A stretch of 64,000 nt of DNA from Deltaproteobacteria bacterium IMCC39524 (GTDB taxonomy: Bacteria > Desulfobacterota > Desulfuromonadia > Desulfuromonadales > BM103), in contig JARUHJ010000001.1 of NCBI GenBank assembly GCA_029667085.1, positions 1-64,000 of the forward strand. The letters run 5' to 3'. Shown here one piece after another: positions 244 to 14,844 of this stretch. The translations under genes were made by a program, and so were the position numbers. The notes under the pieces are model-generated. The model was not told the origin of the DNA. It worked only from the letters and a program-made list of their open reading frames with translations, and searched no databases. Each line of letters begins with the position of its first letter. Within the stretch, counting starts at the first letter, position 1.

Positions 244-2001
244 ATGAGCCTGGGATTTGGTTTGATCCTGGTTTTGATGATCACGACCATGGTTGTTACC
301 TTCTGGTCGCTCAGTAAAGTTGAATACAATACAGAATATTTAAGTACAGAGAGCTTGCCTTTTACCTTGCTGGCAGATCGCATGGTTGTTAACGCTCTGC
401 AGGTTCAGCAGTTTGCGACGGATGCATCGGCAACCAAGGACATTGCTGTTCTTGAAGAGGCGAAAAGCCATTACCAGGAATTTCTTGCTGGTGCCGACAA
501 GTTCAAGGATATGTATCGTGAGGAAAATGATGCTACGGCATTACGTGCAGCTGATCAGCTCGTCGCTTCTATGGATGAGATGTTTGAGACTGCACAACGC
601 ATGACCAGGGCTTATATTGATGAGGGCCAGGAGGCAGGCAATGCCGTGATGCAAGAGTTTGATGCTGACGCTCAGAAACTCACAGGCATGGTCGCTACTT
701 TGCGTGGTCACCAGGTTGAAGAGATCAATGCTCAGGTCAGCAACATTATGCAGGCGTCCAGTCAGGTCAAAACTCTGCAACTCATTATTGGTTTTGCTGC
801 GCTGGTGATCGGTGTACTGGTGACTGTCTTGATCACCCGGAGTATTGTTAAACCACTGACTGTTGCTGTTGACACTGCGCGTGCCCTTGCTGTCGGTGAC
901 CTGACGGTCAAAATTGATCAGGTGAGCAAAGATGAAACCGGACAGTTGCTTGCGGCAATGCGGGACATGGTTGTCTCTAGCCAGGAAGTTGCTGCAATGG
1001 CCGGCAAAGTTGCCGATGGTAATCTGCAGGTGCAGATCAAGGCGCGTTCTGACAAGGATGTTCTGATTCACTCGCTGGGCAATATGGTTGAAAAGCTTAA
1101 AGACGTCATTAATAACGTCAAGCTTTCTATCGAGAACGTTGCTTCAGGCTCGCAGGCCATGAGTGCTTCGAGTGAAGAAATGTCTCAGGGTGCAAGTGAG
1201 CAGGCCGCCGCGGCTGAAGAGGCTTCTTCCAGCGTTGAGCAGATGACTGCCAATATCCGCCAGAATGCTGATAACGCCATGCAGACTGAAAAGATAGCCA
1301 CCCAGTCTTCCGGTGATGCCCGTGAAGGTGGCGACGCGGTCATTGAAACCGTTGGCGCCATGAAGGAAATTGCCGGCAAGATCATGATTATCGAAGAGAT
1401 CGCTCGTCAGACCAACCTGCTGGCACTAAATGCTGCCATTGAAGCGGCCCGTGCAGGTGAGCATGGTAAAGGTTTTGCTGTTGTTGCCGCCGAGGTTCGT
1501 AAACTTGCGGAGCGCAGCCAGAAAGCTGCCGGTGAGATCAACGAACTGTCAACCAATAGTGTAGAGGTCGCAGAGAAAGCAGGAACCGTCCTTTCCGCCC
1601 TGGTGCCGAATATCCAGAAAACAGCTGAGCTGGTCCAGGAGATCAGCGCCTCCAGTCGCGAGCAGGATGCCGGTGCCGACCAGATCGCCAAGAGTATTCA
1701 ACAGCTTGATACCGTCATTCAACAAAACGCGTCCGCTTCTGAAGAGATGGCGAGCACTGCGGAGGAGCTTTCCAGCCAATCAGAGCAGTTGGCTGAAATG
1801 ATCGCTTTCTTCTCTGTTGATGATGGTACTCATGGTCAAAGGTTTCAGCGCAGTGAGAACTCTGCTAGCAAGCGTCCTTCACAAGTGAAGATCGCCCATG
1901 TCGCCGAACCTCAGTTCAAACAAACCCGTCAACCTGATGGGGACGTTTTTGAGGCGACCGGTAAACGTGACTCTCTCGACAACGAATTTGAAACTTTCTA
2001 A
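244..2001 (+). CDS. Methyl-accepting chemotaxis protein, 5' end removed by IS insertion
   Basis: Transmembrane chemoreceptor of 585 residues from the first in-frame ATG. It has a remaining TM1 (about 1-23), a periplasmic four-helix-bundle-like region (to about 175), TM2 (about 176-198), HAMP (about 198-255) and a long cytoplasmic coiled coil. The signalling tip, around residues 380-428, contains [20 protein letters not shown], the CheA/CheW-binding hairpin. The C-terminus ends DNEFETF and fits the x-aromatic-x-x-aromatic CheR/CheB tether. The frame is open upstream to the IS end and reads [13 protein letters not shown], the usual start region of such receptors, so roughly 5-15 N-terminal residues and the native promoter and RBS are lost. 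No good Shine-Dalgarno precedes 244, so expression is doubtful. Followed directly by cheW. Confidence 0.85.
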
Positions 2002-4718: not shown

Positions 4719-6803
4719 ATGGCGGTTACAGTTAAACGAAAATTGATGCACAAGTTCCTTTTTTCCATCCTTACGGTGATTATCGTGGGCATGGCCGGTC
4801 TGACTTTTTTCTCCTATACCATGGCGAAAGATGCCTTGCGGGAAACTGTAGAAAAGCAAGTCACCCAGATTGTTGAGTCAACGGTCAAGTCAATGTCCTT
4901 CTGGGTCAAGGACCGCCGCCTGGATGTGAGCAACTGGAGCAAGCAGAAGGTCTACCAGTCTTCGGTGCAAGACTCTTTCCTGGGCAAGGCTGCTCGAAAG
5001 GGCGCAACGGCTGAGCTGGTACGATTAAAGGAAGAATATGGGTACTACTCGGATATCCTCCTGCTCGACAAGACTGGTAATGTTATTGCCGCCTCTAGCC
5101 CGGCTCTGATTGATGTCGAGACGCTGGATGGCAAGAACTATTTCAAAGAGGCGCTATCCGGAAATCTTTTTGTCTCCCAGGTTTTCCAGAGCAATCAGAC
5201 AGCTCGTCCAATCTTTGCCATTGCCAGCCCGGTGCTTAAGGGAGAAGCTGTTGAAGGTGTTCTGTGCGGTTTCGTAGACATGGACTATTTCAATAGCTTG
5301 TTTGCAGGGAGTGTCAAACTCGGCAAGACGGGCTATGCCTTTATGTTTAACAAAGATGGCGTTGTTGTTGCCCATCCGGATCCGCAACAGATTCTGAAAA
5401 CCAATATGGCTAGCCTGGAGTTTGGTCCACAGATGCTTGCCAAAAGAAACGGCGCACACCTGTATAGCTATAAGGGCCTGGAAAAGTTTGCTTACCTGGC
5501 GCAGGATGATGACCTGGGTTGGACCTTGGCAGTGGGTGTAGGTACCGAAGAGCTCAATGCACCGGCCATTAGGATCAGAAACATTAATTCGTTTCTGGCT
5601 CTTGTTATCATGGGTATTGCTGCGCTAGTGGTTTATATCGTTGCGCGCAAAGTTGTCGTTCCGATTACGAATGCTGCACAACTTGCTGAAACAATCCGCC
5701 TTGGGGATCTTTCTGAGCGTTTGGATACTGACCTTAATGACGAAGTTGGCCAACTTTCTGATGCCTTGAATGCCATGGCCGACGGTCTGGAACAAAAAGC
5801 CCAACTGGCAGGGGCTATCGCCGATGGAGATCTCACGGTTGATGTGCGACTTGCTTCTGAGAATGACCAGCTGGGTAAGGCTTTGCAAACCATGACCGAA
5901 GTTTTAAATGATGTTATCCAGCAGGTCATGGTCGCTACGGGTAATGTTGCCTCCGGAAGTCAGGCTCTGGCTTCGGCAAGTCAGGAGATGTCTCAAGGCG
6001 CCACAGAACAGTCGGCTTCTGCAGAAGAGGCTTCCAGTTCGATCGAGGAGATGTCAGCCAATATTCGCCAGAACACAGACAACGCGATGCAGACAGAGAA
6101 AATTGCCGTCAAGGCGGCACAAGAGGCCGAGCAGGGTGGTGCGGCCGTTGCTGATACGGTTGCTGCAATGAAGGAGATCGCCAACAAAATTGTGATCATC
6201 GAGGAGATAGCCCGCCAAACGAACCTGTTGGCTCTGAACGCAGCGATTGAGGCTGCTCGTGCGGGTGAGCACGGTAAAGGTTTTGCCGTTGTTGCTGCTG
6301 AGGTTCGTAAGTTGGCAGAACGCAGCCAGACGGCTGCGGGTGAGATCAACAGTTTGTCAGTCTCCAGTGTGGAGGTTGCCGAGAGTGCCGGGTCAATGCT
6401 CGACAGTATTGTGCCGAGTATTCAAAAAACTTCGGAGCTTGTTCAGGAAATCGCAGCGGCCAGCCGTGAGCAGGATGCTGGTGCTGACCAGATCAACAGT
6501 AGTATTCAGCAGTTGGACAAGGTTATTCAGCAAAATGCTGCTGCGACCGAAGAGATGGCATCTACCTCTGAAGAATTGACCAGTCAGAGTGATCAATTAA
6601 AAGACATGATGGCCTTTTTTAAAGTCAAGGATTTTGATGTTCCGAGCCAGCAGCTTGCACGCCGAAGTGGGCCCATAGCTTCATCGGGGAGTGCTCCGTT
6701 GTTTGACCGCCCCGCTAAGGAAATACCCCGGCTTGAAAACGCCAATGGTGAGGTCGGTCGTGGCAGTCATGACGATATAGACAACGAATTCGAGACCTAT
6801 TAA
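4719..6803 (+). CDS. Methyl-accepting chemotaxis protein with dCache-like sensor
   Basis: Chemoreceptor of 694 residues. TM1 is at about 14-33. A large periplasmic dCache-like domain (about 35-285) contains [18 protein letters not shown] and [11 protein letters not shown]2 is at about 288-310, with HAMP about 311-365 and a further HAMP-like stretch to about 400. The cytoplasmic signalling hairpin is almost identical to that of the receptor at 244-2001 ([20 protein letters not shown] around residue 490). The tail ends DNEFETY, a CheR/CheB tether-like sequence. The start follows AAAGGAG. The upstream binding protein may deliver ligand to the sensor domain. The stop overlaps the region just before cheW. 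Confidence 0.93.
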
Positions 6804-6814
6804 TGGAGGCTTCT

Positions 6815-7330
6815 GTGGAGGACTCAAATACTGTAAGTAGCCAACAATACGTGACTTTCATCCTCGGTGAAGAGTTGTTTGGTGTTGTGGTCTCTCGAAC
6901 GCGGGAGATTTTGAGCCAGACGCCGGTCACCAAGGTGCCGCAAACACCTGAGTATCTGCTTGGTGTGATCAACCTGCGTGGCCAAGTGGTACCCGTGGTC
7001 GATATGCGCTTGAAGTTGGGGTTGACTGCCGGCGCAGACACAGAGGATACCTGCATTATCGTGGTTGACGTTCAGATTGATGGTGAAGTGATCACCGTTG
7101 GTGCCTTGGCCGACGCCGTTCGTGAGGTTCTGGATATTCGCTCCGACCAGATTGAGCCAGCACCGCGGCTCGGCACACGCCTTAAAACCGAGTTCATCAA
7201 TGGTATGGGCAAGGTTGATGAGCAGTTTATGATTCTGTTGAATATTGACAAGATTTTTAATAGCGATGAGTTTGCCTGGGTTCAGGATGCGGCCGAGCAT
7301 GCTGTTGACGAAGAGCTTGCAGAGGCCTGA
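6815..7330 (+). CDS. cheW: Chemotaxis adaptor CheW (copy 2, GTG start)
   Basis: Second CheW of 171 residues, nearly identical to the one at 2012-2527. An ATG at 6803 overlaps the mcp stop codon, but alignment of the two cassettes shows that GTG at 6815 sits exactly where the ATG of copy 1 sits. Both follow GGAGGCT at the same spacing, and with this start both genes are 516 bases long. The 6803 start would add four residues and has no ribosome site. The near identity of the two copies suggests duplication or gene conversion. A terminator follows. Confidence 0.92.
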   Translation: MEDSNTVSSQQYVTFILGEELFGVVVSRTREILSQTPVTKVPQTPEYLLGVINLRGQVVPVVDMRLKLGLTAGADTEDTCIIVVDVQIDGEVITVGALADAVREVLDIRSDQIEPAPRLGTRLKTEFINGMGKVDEQFMILLNIDKIFNSDEFAWVQDAAEHAVDEELAEA

Positions 7331-8448: not shown

Positions 8449-8563
8449 GCTAAACAAACAAAATCTGGGCTTTTCTTCCATGTTAATCACTTGTCTTGCT
8501 AGCGGATAAGCTTCTTCTATGATATATATAATGAGAATAATTTTCGGTTTAGTGAGGTGCTTG

Positions 8564-8956
8564 ATGTCCCATGAAAACGTAAAAGTGCTGATTGTTGAAG
8601 ACGACCCGGATTTTGCGGAGAGCCTGATGATTGCTTTGGGTGTTCGTGACTGTCACGTGGATATCGCACGTACAGGTGAGGAGGCCATCCGTAAATATCG
8701 TAGCCTCTGCTACGATATCGCTTTTATGGATATCAAACTTCCCGGTAAAAATGGTGTAGAGAGCCTGGCAGAAATCCGGAGTTTTTGTCCTTCGGCCAAG
8801 GTTGTGATGATGACGGGGTTCAGTGAAGCGACTCTTCTGGATACCGCTCTTAAGGCAGGTGCCATCGACATCCTGCGCAAACCCTTTCGCTTGAAAGAGA
8901 TGTTCGGCTTTATCGACAAACTTCAAAACGATTCTCCAGCGGTGGTTAAACATTAA
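8564..8956 (+). CDS. Single-domain response regulator
   Basis: Receiver protein of 130 residues. The acidic pocket is in LIVEDDPDF, the phospho-acceptor Asp in AFMDIKLPGKNG, and the Thr and Lys switch residues in MMTGFS and ILRKPFRLKEM. The sequence is closer to NtrC/AtoC-type receivers than to CheY, but no output domain follows. The start at 8564 (MSHENVKVLIVEDD) follows GAGGTG; the frame is open to 8519. It lies 50 bases upstream of the large hybrid-free histidine kinase gene, a likely phosphodonor. Confidence 0.87.
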   Translation: MSHENVKVLIVEDDPDFAESLMIALGVRDCHVDIARTGEEAIRKYRSLCYDIAFMDIKLPGKNGVESLAEIRSFCPSAKVVMMTGFSEATLLDTALKAGAIDILRKPFRLKEMFGFIDKLQNDSPAVVKH

Positions 8957-9006
8957 TTGATTATTGACAAGCGTCTGTACTCCCTCAAATCCTGCAGGCG
9001 CTTCCC

Positions 9007-12000
9007 TTGTTCTGGCCGATGGGCTCATCAACAAACATGTCTTTTCTATTCTCACTGAAACGCGCTTTAACTGTTAACTTCCTGGTGGTTGCCGCTGTTC
9101 CTGTTCTCCTCTTTGGTCTGTTCACTATTCAACTGATTTCCAGTCATCAGCTTGATGGTGTGCGTGAGCGCAATGCTACGCAAGCCAGAAGCATCGCTGA
9201 CGAGGTGGATTCCTTCCTTCTGGAAGTCCGATCGGACTTGCGGCACGTTGAGCAGGTCCTTTCTACAAAAGAGATTTTACAGCCAGGCCGCGCTGATGAT
9301 TTTCTTGCCAACATGGTTCGTAACTCCCGCTTCTTTGAGTCCATTTACCTGCTTGATGATCAGTATAGAGTGGTTAGCCTCGGCGTGTTGCCTAAATTGC
9401 TGGCACGAAGTGAAGACTTCATTGGCCTGGATTTTTCCGGCCATCAGCTTTTTCGGTCTGGCGAAGATTTAAAAATGCCAGTCTGGAGTAATACTTTTGT
9501 CTCCCTGGTGACAGGTGAACCCTCTGTGACCCTTGGGGTGCCAATGCCTGGAGGCTTTCTGCTCGGGAATATCCGTTTGAGCAGCCTTGGAAAATTACTG
9601 CAAAGATACTCTAGTGCCGGTATTGAAGTTTCGATCATTGACCAGGGCGGTACCCTGGTCGCTCATAATGTTACAAAAAAGGCTATGCAGCGGCTTAACT
9701 TCGGTGGCCACCCTGCTGTTGTCTCGGCCATGGAGGGTGTTGAGTCGACCCGCGAATTCAAACAAGGGCCATTGCATAACCTTGAGAGCGTCAGCCCGGT
9801 TTTGACCTCGGGCTGGGTTGTTTGGGTTGGCCTTGATATGCATTTCATCCTGGCTCCGATCAATGATATTCGCGACTTGCTTATCTTTTTTATGGTCATT
9901 GCTGTCTCTCTGGCCAGCATTATTGCTCTCTTCAATGTTCAGCGTCTGATGACACCTTTGATTGCCTTGGGTGACCGTACCAAGCTGATTGCAGATGGAC
10001 TTTATGATTTCCGCTTTCGTCCCTCGGGGTTTGTTGAGATCGATGAACTCGCCAATCAGATTGCGAGCATGACTCACGCCATCAAAATGCGTGAGGAGTC
10101 AATCGTCACCAATGAACAGCGCTTTCGTGATCTGGTCAACTCGATCGATGGCATTGTCTGGGAGATGGAATATCCTTCGTTTCGTTTCTTGTTTGTCAGT
10201 AAACAGGCAGAGACTATTCTCGGTTATCCCTTGCAGGACTGGTATGAAGTAGAGTCCTTCTGGGAACAGAAGACACATGCCGAGGATCTGGCCCAGGCGA
10301 AATCCTACTGCCAGTTGATGTCAGAAAAGCATGAAGATCATGACTTTGAATATCGCATGATCGCTGCTGACGGCCGGATTGTCTGGATCCGCGATCTGGT
10401 CACAGTGGTTGTTGAGGACTGTCGTCCCGTCCGCCTGCTCGGGGTTATGATTGATGTCACAGAGCAGAAGGAACTGCTGGATGATTTGAGCCGCAGTGAA
10501 CAAAATTACAGGGAGATTTTTAACGCAACCAGCGATGCCATCTTTATCCACGATTCAGAAACAGGCCAGGTCCTGGACGTGAATCAATCGATGCTGAAAA
10601 TGCATAACACGACCTACGAGGCCGCTCTTGTCGGCGGTATGGAAGCGATCAGCCAGGGCGAGGGTCCCTACAGCATGGAAGCGGCCAAACTCAAATTGCA
10701 GTTTGCAAGAGAACATGGCAGCTGTGCTTTTGAATGGCACTCGCGTAAAGCGACAGGCGAGTATTTCTGGACCGATGTCAACCTGCGCAGAGCGATGATC
10801 GGTAACCAGAGTCGCATCATTGCGACTGTTCGTGATATTTCTGATCGCAAAGAAGCGGCCGAAAAACTCCGGGAGGCGAATGAAAGCCTGCTCCTGCTCA
10901 TTAATCGCATGCCGATTGGCTGCATTTTCTGGTCACCTGAATTTACGGTCAACATGTGGAACCCTGCGGCCGAAGCGATCTTTGGTTTTACAGAGGAGGA
11001 AATGGTCGGGTGCTCGCCATTGGATACCATTGTTGCAGAAGAGCTGCGCGGCGAAATGCTAGCCCTGTGGCCCAGACTGATGTCGGGCGACACGTCCGCT
11101 CACAGTGTCAACGATAACCTGACCAAGGCAGGGAAAACCATTATCTGTGAATGGTACAATACCCCCGTAAATGATCTCTCTGGCGAGATCATCGGTGTTA
11201 TCTCCATGGTTCAAGATGTTTCAGACCGTAAAGCGGCGGAGAAAGAGCTGGAACGATACCGCCATCAGCTGGAAGACCTTGTCAGGCAACGGACTGAACA
11301 GTTGGAGAAAACCCAACAAGAGTTGGTCCAGAAAGAAAGACTCGCGGTTCTGGGGCAGCTGACGGCCACTGTCAGCCACGAAATACGTAATCCCCTTGGT
11401 ACTGTTGCAAATTCCCTTTATCTCCTCAAGGATGCCTTGCCAGGGGATGATTTTCCTCATCTGGCCAGACCTCTGCAACTGGCAGAGAGGAATGTTGAAC
11501 GTTGTGACAGTATTATCAGTGATCTTCTTGATTTCTCCCGCCAGCGTACAATTGAAAAAGAAGCCGTTGCGATTGATGAATGGCTTGCAGAACTCCTTGA
11601 TGAGCTCAGTTTCCCTTCTGACGTTAACTGTCATTGGTTGCTTAATTCTAAGGCTGTTGCTTTGGTTGACAGCGAGCGATTACGCAGGGTTATGGTGAAT
11701 GTGATTACCAACGCCCTGCAGGCTATGGATGAGGCCTCTGTGGTTGATAAATCCCTGGAGATTATCACCATGGCTGCCGATGGACGCTGTGAAATTAACG
11801 TGTGTGACACCGGGGTAGGGATGAGTGAAGAGGTTATGTCACGCATCTTTGAGCCGATGTTCAGCACCAAAAACTTTGGCGTTGGCCTGGGTGTTCCGAT
11901 TATTATGAATATTATGGAAGGGCATGGCGGTGGCGCGATCTATCAAAGCTCTCTTGATAGGGGTACGACTGTGAAGCTGTGGCTACCGTCCGTTCTGCCT

Positions 12001-12012
12001 CATTGGAAATGA
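9007..12012 (+). CDS. Multi-PAS sensor histidine kinase
   Basis: Membrane sensor kinase of about 1000 residues. TM1 is at about 22-44. An extracytoplasmic sensor (about 45-285, Cache-like) is followed by TM2 (about 290-310) and HAMP (about 312-362). Three PAS/PAC units follow (about 372-492, 497-618 and 628-745), and then a coiled coil (about 745-785). The HisKA H-box is ATVSHEIRNPLGTV. The HATPase domain has NVITNALQAMDE, DTGVGM and the G2 box FGVGLGVPI. There is no attached receiver, so the adjacent receiver (8564) is a likely partner. The start is uncertain: TTG 9007 has AGGCG upstream, while ATGs at 9019 and 9037 lack ribosome sites; MSFLFSLKRAL (9037) is a natural-looking N-terminus. Confidence 0.9.
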   Translation: MFWPMGSSTNMSFLFSLKRALTVNFLVVAAVPVLLFGLFTIQLISSHQLDGVRERNATQARSIADEVDSFLLEVRSDLRHVEQVLSTKEILQPGRADDFLANMVRNSRFFESIYLLDDQYRVVSLGVLPKLLARSEDFIGLDFSGHQLFRSGEDLKMPVWSNTFVSLVTGEPSVTLGVPMPGGFLLGNIRLSSLGKLLQRYSSAGIEVSIIDQGGTLVAHNVTKKAMQRLNFGGHPAVVSAMEGVESTREFKQGPLHNLESVSPVLTSGWVVWVGLDMHFILAPINDIRDLLIFFMVIAVSLASIIALFNVQRLMTPLIALGDRTKLIADGLYDFRFRPSGFVEIDELANQIASMTHAIKMREESIVTNEQRFRDLVNSIDGIVWEMEYPSFRFLFVSKQAETILGYPLQDWYEVESFWEQKTHAEDLAQAKSYCQLMSEKHEDHDFEYRMIAADGRIVWIRDLVTVVVEDCRPVRLLGVMIDVTEQKELLDDLSRSEQNYREIFNATSDAIFIHDSETGQVLDVNQSMLKMHNTTYEAALVGGMEAISQGEGPYSMEAAKLKLQFAREHGSCAFEWHSRKATGEYFWTDVNLRRAMIGNQSRIIATVRDISDRKEAAEKLREANESLLLLINRMPIGCIFWSPEFTVNMWNPAAEAIFGFTEEEMVGCSPLDTIVAEELRGEMLALWPRLMSGDTSAHSVNDNLTKAGKTIICEWYNTPVNDLSGEIIGVISMVQDVSDRKAAEKELERYRHQLEDLVRQRTEQLEKTQQELVQKERLAVLGQLTATVSHEIRNPLGTVANSLYLLKDALPGDDFPHLARPLQLAERNVERCDSIISDLLDFSRQRTIEKEAVAIDEWLAELLDELSFPSDVNCHWLLNSKAVALVDSERLRRVMVNVITNALQAMDEASVVDKSLEIITMAADGRCEINVCDTGVGMSEEVMSRIFEPMFSTKNFGVGLGVPIIMNIMEGHGGGAIYQSSLDRGTTVKLWLPSVLPHWK

Positions 12013-13420
<1,408 letters not shown>

Positions 13421-13448: not shown

Positions 13449-14336
13449 ATGAAAAAGCCAAGCGACGAAGAGCTGATCGAGGAAATTCGGCAGCGTTTTG
13501 AATCGAACCACAATGCTCTCAACGACATGCGCGCGATGACGCGCAAGCTGGAGTCGATGAACGAGAAATTGAAGGACTCCGAGGCCTTGAAGAGTCAGTT
13601 TCTTTCAAATATCCGCAACGAAATTAATAACCCCCTCTCCGCGATCATGGGCTTGTCCGGTCAGTTTTTTGACCAAGATTGTGATCCTGCCGTCTGTCGG
13701 AAAACGATCTGCATGATTTATGCGGAAGCTTTTAATCTCGATTTCCAGCTGCAGAATGTTTTTATGGCTGCCGAGCTTGAAGCCGGTGAGGCTGAAATTT
13801 CTTATGCGATGGTTGAGATAGTCAGCATCCTGACGGGCTGTATTGACAAGCTGGCCTATCGCATCTCGGAAAAAGAAATCGAAATTACACAGTCGGTTCC
13901 CGAGGACCTGATCTTCCCGAGCGACGCACAGAAGTTTGAAGCTGTCCTCATCAACCTGCTCGCCAATGCTGTTGAGTTCAATCACAATGGCGGAACGATT
14001 AATGTTGATATCAAGGAGACCCGCTCCGGATTGACCGTTACTGTGATCGATAATGGCCCGGGGATTAATCCTGTTGATCAGGAAGTCATCTTTGACCGCT
14101 TCAAACAACTTGATGTCGGTACCACCAAGGGGCACAGAGGTCACGGCCTTGGTTTGAGCATTTGCTGGTCGCTTGCCGAGCTGCTCGGTGGGACTCTGGA
14201 TCTGGACAGCCAACCCGGTAACGGCTGTCGTTTTGTGCTCTCCCTGCCGAGACCCGATGTGGAAGTCGCTGTGCACGCTAAAGACGGTAATTTTTTTCTC
14301 TTTGATGAGTCTGATGACGAGGTAGAGACGTTCTAG
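13449..14336 (+). CDS. Histidine-kinase-like protein with Asn in place of the phospho-acceptor His
   Basis: Soluble protein of 295 residues between cheB and cheD. The N-terminal 50 residues form a charged coiled coil with no membrane segment. The dimerisation/H-box reads FLSNIRNEINNPLSAIMG. Aligned with the usual FLxNxSHExRTPL it has Asn57 where the phosphorylated His should be; the following Glu and the Pro-Leu are kept. The ATPase half keeps the N box (NLLANAVEF), G1 (DNGPGI) and G2 (GHGLGLSI), so nucleotide binding is plausible. The C-terminus ends DDEVETF, close to the EFETF/EFETY tails of the two receptors here. I infer a pseudokinase acting as scaffold or regulator in adaptation. A sequence error at one codon cannot be excluded. 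Confidence 0.85.
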   Translation: MKKPSDEELIEEIRQRFESNHNALNDMRAMTRKLESMNEKLKDSEALKSQFLSNIRNEINNPLSAIMGLSGQFFDQDCDPAVCRKTICMIYAEAFNLDFQLQNVFMAAELEAGEAEISYAMVEIVSILTGCIDKLAYRISEKEIEITQSVPEDLIFPSDAQKFEAVLINLLANAVEFNHNGGTINVDIKETRSGLTVTVIDNGPGINPVDQEVIFDRFKQLDVGTTKGHRGHGLGLSICWSLAELLGGTLDLDSQPGNGCRFVLSLPRPDVEVAVHAKDGNFFLFDESDDEVETF

Positions 14337-14340
14337 ACTT

Positions 14341-14844
14341 ATGATGAGCCAGACCACAGGTACAGTAGAGACTCTCTCTCCAGCACGCCACTACCTTTAT
14401 CCGGGCACGCTTTTCGTGCACCGCAAGCCTCATTTGATCACAACGGTGCTCGGCTCCTGTGTTGCCGTCTGCCTGTGGAATCAAACCTCGCAGCTCGGTG
14501 GCATTAACCACTACCTTTTGCCACTCTGGAACGGTGAGGGGCTGCCGACTCCCAAGTACGGCAATATCGCGATTGCCAAGTTGTATGAAAAGGTCCGTGC
14601 ACATTCCAACCCGGGCGATAAACTGATTGCCAAGGTCTTTGGCGGCGCCTCCATGTGGGAAAAAACGGACGGTCTCCTGGCCGTTGGGCAACGGAATATC
14701 GATTTTGCCCTGGAAACCCTGGAAGCCCTCGGTATTTCGGTGGTTGCTAAAGATCTCGGTGGTCATCAGGGTCGTAAAGTCATTTTTAACAGTGGTGACG
14801 GTTCGGTTCTGATGAGAAGACAGCGGCCAATGGGCAAGTCCTGA
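14341..14844 (+). CDS. cheD: Chemoreceptor glutamine deamidase CheD
   Basis: Converts specific receptor glutamines to glutamates and in some bacteria binds CheC. 167 residues with the CheD active-site Cys40 in TVLGSCVAVCL, the catalytic His57 in GGINHYLLP, and GGASMW followed by GQRNIDFALETL. The gene begins 4 bases after the kinase-like gene (ATG 14341; a second ATG follows at 14344), so it is probably translationally coupled to it. No cheC is seen. Confidence 0.95.
   Translation: MMSQTTGTVETLSPARHYLYPGTLFVHRKPHLITTVLGSCVAVCLWNQTSQLGGINHYLLPLWNGEGLPTPKYGNIAIAKLYEKVRAHSNPGDKLIAKVFGGASMWEKTDGLLAVGQRNIDFALETLEALGISVVAKDLGGHQGRKVIFNSGDGSVLMRRQRPMGKS

Follow-up and report, generated by a model that had tools for sequence, protein, structure and literature searches.

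What part can a histidine kinase play in chemotaxis when its phospho-acceptor histidine is missing? The question is raised by a gene, called X below, lying between cheB and cheD in the window, i.e. the entire 64,000-nucleotide stretch of Deltaproteobacteria bacterium IMCC39524 analysed here. The gene and its surroundings are as follows.

12344..13420, + strand: cheB (receiver and methylesterase), a common but inconstant neighbour of X
13449..14336, + strand: X, an ORF of 295 aa with an ATG start, identified as a pseudo-histidine kinase from the ORF, Pfam, AlphaFold2 and 86 full-length members; soluble, with a long N-terminal helix, a DHp domain carrying Asn57 for His, a HATPase domain and a C-terminal tail
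13602..13637, + strand: altered H-box LSNIRNEINNPL, residues 52-63, with N57 for His and R56 for Ser; E58 and N61 kept
13953..13979, + strand: N box NLLANAVEF, residues 169-177, with Glu176 for the usual Lys/Arg
14283..14333, + strand: X tail DGNFFLFDESDDEVETF, residues 279-295, with the GN[LF]FLFD motif and an MCP-like E-T-F end, predicted disordered
14341..14844, + strand: cheD, the constant partner gene of X, with GGASMW and not the CheC-contact motif GGAxMF

In the window, X is separated from cheB by 28 bp and from cheD by 4 bp. A Pfam scan of the window protein places HATPase_c at 95 bits, well above its cut-off, and HisKA at 25.6 bits, slightly below the cut-off of 26.9, as expected because the H-box is altered. 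The scan recognised no sensor domain and gave no PAS, CheC or CheX match; X is a HisKA/HATPase protein and lies outside the CheC/CheX fold. In the AlphaFold2 model (mean pLDDT 83.5), a long helix (residues 6-71) enters the DHp domain, whose second helix spans residues 80-111; the CA domain is regular and the tail disordered. The top Foldseek matches in the PDB are HK853-RR468 complexes (6rh0, 3dge), followed by DivL (4q20). By sequence and by fold (Pfam HATPase_c; Foldseek), X thus resembles the DHp-CA cores of HisKA kinases.

The H-box of the window protein reads FLSNIRNEINNPL. Alignment to solved structures places Asn57 opposite the phospho-His of GacS, SrrB and YycG/WalK-type kinases. All 86 full-length members of the family carry Asn at this position and all 17 of the nearest kinases carry His, so that X lacks the acceptor expected of a HisKA sensor kinase. 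The flanking residues are equally distinctive: position 56 is Arg in 85/86 members versus Ser in 17/17 nearest kinases, position 61 is Asn in 83, Thr in 1 and Asp in 2 of the 86 versus Thr in 17/17, and Glu58 is kept in every X H-box listed. Asn61 of the window protein is the Asn/Thr at H+4 that is the criterion for HisKA phosphatases. One member (locus L193) has His instead of Arg at position 56 (NIHNEINNPL), one residue ahead of the normal acceptor site. Another conserved histidine was sought as an alternative acceptor and none occurs among the invariant or near-invariant DHp columns; the near-invariant H229 belongs to the ATP-lid/G2 region, outside the DHp domain.

The ATP site is intact. 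Its boxes, N (N169, N173), G1 (D201, G203, G205), F (F215) and G2 (G231, G233, G235), are invariant or near-invariant in a 72-sequence alignment that contains 38 invariant columns. Within the N box, Glu176 is found in 79/86 members, versus Lys or Arg in all 17 nearest kinases. The alignment, Pfam and the conservation among the 72 sequences confirm the claim of an earlier note on this DNA that Asn occupies the phospho-His site while the N, G1 and G2 boxes are intact; the note had proposed a pseudo-histidine kinase that keeps its ATP site and is unlikely to be a normal kinase, to be abandoned should orthologues have His, and Asn in 86/86 supports it. A single base change converts an Asn codon into a His codon. 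Since Asn57 is constant although one base would restore His, and since the nucleotide site is kept, the sequences are most simply read as showing a single loss of the acceptor that was never reversed.

The extent of the family was determined in two ways. A DNA pattern, N[IV]RNE[IV]xNPL, had matches in 73 of the 277 genomes of the class, and the reversed pattern, used as control, had none. Because this pattern itself demands Asn, a profile built from 72 members was searched against the same 277 genomes and a phylum sample, and X was recovered in 77/277 class genomes and in 8 further genomes from two other families of the phylum. The family is sharply bounded, with a drop from 5e-93 for the weakest full-length member to 8.5e-59 for the next generic kinase. 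Thirteen full-length members were recovered by the profile independently of the pattern, all with Asn57 and Glu58 (13/13). X sequences form one clade (FastTree support 0.85). On these sequence criteria X is a distinct family and not a local accident, and family-wide conservation rules out a sequencing error or a pseudogene as its source. It falls within no named family: NCBIfam models all score far below their cut-offs (for the window protein the top model is PnpS, at 150 bits where 400 are required), in keeping with the earlier remark that no named family member with this role was known. No description of a CheD-linked pseudokinase was found in a literature whose coverage is thin for subscription journals.

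The genomic context of X is dominated by cheD, which lies immediately 3' on the same strand in 86/86 loci, with a gap of at most 53 bp. This pairing supports the suggestion, already made from the window alone, that X acts in chemotaxis adaptation. The cheB-X-cheD sandwich that had been taken as the defining unit does not hold: cheB, cheR, cheW and MCP genes are common near X but never constant, cheB is often elsewhere, and X-cheD alone is constant. Judged with a blastp reference set, 24 X loci have no other che gene, and 15 of these are clear of such genes for at least 5 kb on each side. Across loci, no response-regulator gene is constantly linked to X.

Several individual loci may be mentioned here. 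In G014:C67 (L196), X is broken off after about residue 137 and fused out of frame to what is left of CheD, its C-terminal half; one deletion has damaged both genes, taking the 3' part of X and the 5' part of cheD, which may be a real loss or an assembly artefact. Locus L160 (G018:C240) is a second X-cheD pair within one genome, about 50% identical to that of the window; its X likewise has Asn in place of the acceptor His and ends in an E-K-F tail, and its CheD reads GGASTG at the CheC-contact motif. The stand-alone pair L145 is flanked by genes named by eye, an apparent HDOD-domain gene 3' of cheD and an iron-sulphur protein gene 5' of X. In the window, positions 8519-12012, between CheW/CheY genes and cheB, encode a response regulator together with a dCache-PAS histidine kinase whose H-box is normal; only among the loci of the window's family were full-strength relatives of the two seen near X.

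The relation of X to CheC is of particular importance. The window genome has one CheD adjoining CheC in a separate cluster on contig C4 (G000:C4:442016-443052) and another adjoining X, which rules out X as a stand-in for a CheC missing from the whole genome. Within the window's family, all 12 genomes with X carry exactly two CheD, counting as the second CheD of G014 its truncated copy, and all 10 genomes without X carry one or none (Fisher p 1.5e-6, shared ancestry being ignored). CheDs are divided one-to-one between CheC and X, with one X for each extra CheD in this family.

This division is matched by a residue difference at the site corresponding to Met101-Phe102 of Bacillus subtilis CheD. 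In B. subtilis, the F102E change lowers CheC binding to about 10%; the Met-Phe pair is conserved only in species having CheC and is also missing in the CheDs of CheC-less proteobacteria (PMC3513319). Met-Phe is kept in 21/21 CheC-linked CheDs, whereas Phe occurs in 0/86 X-linked CheDs (Trp 27, Ser 20, Leu 19, Asn 8, others). Judged by this site, the CheC handle is gone from the CheD encoded next to X. The missing Phe is the strongest indirect support for replacement of CheC by X; it indicates freedom from CheC and says nothing of binding to X.

The reading that we favour, with a probability of roughly 0.55, is that X, a HisKA protein dead as a kinase, takes the place of CheC in regulating its linked CheD. 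A histidine kinase would have lost autophosphorylation permanently and been recruited as dedicated regulator of the CheD encoded downstream, occupying the place that CheC holds next to the other CheD in these genomes. CheY~P or CheB~P may dock on the DHp helices of the X dimer, in the manner known for HK853 and DivL; the conformation of X would depend on the bound nucleotide and receiver and would decide whether CheD resides on X or on receptors, closing an adaptation feedback loop. The Glu58/Asn61 pair could in addition let X hydrolyse the aspartyl phosphate of the response regulator. The lost acceptor His, the kept ATP site, the constant pairing with cheD and the lost CheC contact of that CheD are observed; binding to CheD, binding to the phosphorylated regulator and phosphatase activity are inferred. 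A more specific version, to which we give slightly less than even odds, would make X a phosphatase-locked HisKA protein whose sole job is to couple the phosphorylated regulator to CheD, the receptor deamidase; this class and its allies would then have reconstructed the CheC-CheD adaptation loop from a protein of unrelated fold.

In four HisKA kinases, phosphatase activity depends on the Asn/Thr at H+4 but not on His, and the acidic residue at H+1 is needed only for kinase activity (PMC3510030). A phosphatase-locked protein would be expected to look like X, with the H+4 residue and no acceptor. Because the acidic residue serves kinase and not phosphatase activity, the constancy of E58 is not accounted for by classical HisKA phosphatase chemistry. 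The E-x-x-N of X resembles the phosphatase motif of CheX (PMC3510030), a likeness that is suggestive only, and Asp61 in two members may not be fit for phosphatase activity. Because the window genome also encodes CheC, X is not the sole candidate CheY~P phosphatase there. The E58xxN61 pair, the CheC-like place beside a CheD without the CheC handle and the MCP-like tail had escaped the earlier note.

This tail, and the two receptors with which it can be compared, bear on one of the alternatives.

244..2001, + strand: MCP ending DNEFETF, same cluster, with a terminus of the CheR/CheB-tether type
4719..6803, + strand: MCP ending DNEFETY, same cluster, with a terminus of the CheR/CheB-tether type

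Variants of GN[LF]FLFD follow the CA domain in nearly all members, and 35/36 members outside families f23 and f25 end in Phe, mostly as E-x-F; the window protein ends DDEVETF. Among MCPs of the same loci, 36/39 have an aromatic end and 30/39 an E-x-[FWY] end, which is found in none of the CheB, CheD, CheR, CheW and CheY proteins of these loci. The two window receptors belong to MCP-CheW cassettes (244-2527 and 4719-7330) with very similar CheW proteins, probably a duplication. A correspondence between tail type and the CheD residue, judged by eye, has exceptions, and no claim is made for it.

X could accordingly be a decoy or scaffold whose MCP-like C-terminus draws CheR and CheB from or to receptor arrays, as its likeness to MCP ends and unlikeness to other Che proteins would allow. 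We consider this improbable. The CheR/CheB pentapeptide rule, xZxxZ, places aromatics at positions 2 and 5 (PMC7390727), whereas EVETF of the window protein has the aromatic at position 5 and Val at position 2; the position-2 aromatic is missing in all members except L093 (EFETF), which rules out a strict CheR pentapeptide. Moreover, Geobacter-like members have lost the terminal Phe though their MCPs retain EFEKF, and the gene partner of X is cheD, not cheR. Tethering of CheR/CheB by the tail is treated here as a rival that concerns part of the family, and could also be an extra, lineage-specific function. A more serious alternative, which we nonetheless regard as unlikely, is a sensor of the DivL kind, binding the phosphorylated regulator and relaying a conformation to CheD or another partner with no phosphatase activity. 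DivL, which has Tyr in place of His, ranks second among the structural matches (4q20) and senses DivK~P without kinase or phosphatase activity (PMC4211667), and CheC, too, works chiefly by binding CheD and less by its phosphatase activity (PMC3513319). However, X retains Asn/Thr61 in 84/86 members and an intact ATP site, for which a pure sensor has no obvious need. Nor is X an orthologue of DivL, having no PAS domain, Asn at the site and 27% identity over the core.

The intact ATP-site motifs are also what would be expected if the ATPase domain of X phosphorylated the histidine of another kinase in a heterodimer. That possibility, which the earlier note had raised for CheA, gains no support and appears very remote: the N-box Lys/Arg is replaced by Glu176 in most members (79/86), the DHp acceptor region is strongly constrained, which is unexpected if the ATPase domain alone mattered, and in the 15 isolated loci no further che gene lies closer than 5 kb. 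As for a decaying paralogue of an ordinary kinase, to which the lost acceptor might point, the phylum-wide set of 86 full-length open frames, the 38 invariant columns and the constant operon position make it barely credible.

Geobacter genomes have no CheZ, and their cheD genes lie in type 2 clusters like that of E. coli, next to genes whose function is unknown; the survey of Geobacter chemotaxis left the non-che genes of these clusters unnamed (PMC2577667). With X there is a concrete candidate for one such gene, and one that allows testable predictions at the level of single residues. If X does replace CheC, identical feedback logic would have arisen twice on unrelated folds. To our knowledge, characterised natural pseudo-histidine kinases are few, DivL being the main one, and none tied to chemotaxis adaptation was found.

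Each of the known systems that X recalls differs from it in a defined way. CheC, a partner of CheD and a phosphatase of CheY~P, is like X encoded beside a CheD, has ExxN-like phosphatase residues and links a phosphorylated response regulator to CheD, as would be expected of X; however, its fold is unrelated to that of a dead kinase, and the CheD adjoining X is without the CheC-contact Phe. DivL of Caulobacter shares the HisKA/HATPase fold, another residue at the phospho-His site and the reading of a phosphorylated receiver, here proposed for X, but it carries Tyr (or Ala) at that site, possesses PAS domains and serves in the cell cycle, whereas X carries Asn, is without a sensor domain and is paired with CheD. 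The HisKA phosphatases HK853, CrdS, EnvZ and NtrB share fold, ATP site and Asn/Thr at H+4 (PMC3510030), whereas X has no acceptor His or sensor domain and has Glu for the N-box Lys/Arg. The C-terminal CheR/CheB pentapeptide of MCPs resembles the terminal E-x-F of most members outside the Geobacter-like branch, although the tail of X is without the position-2 aromatic and is not carried on a receptor.
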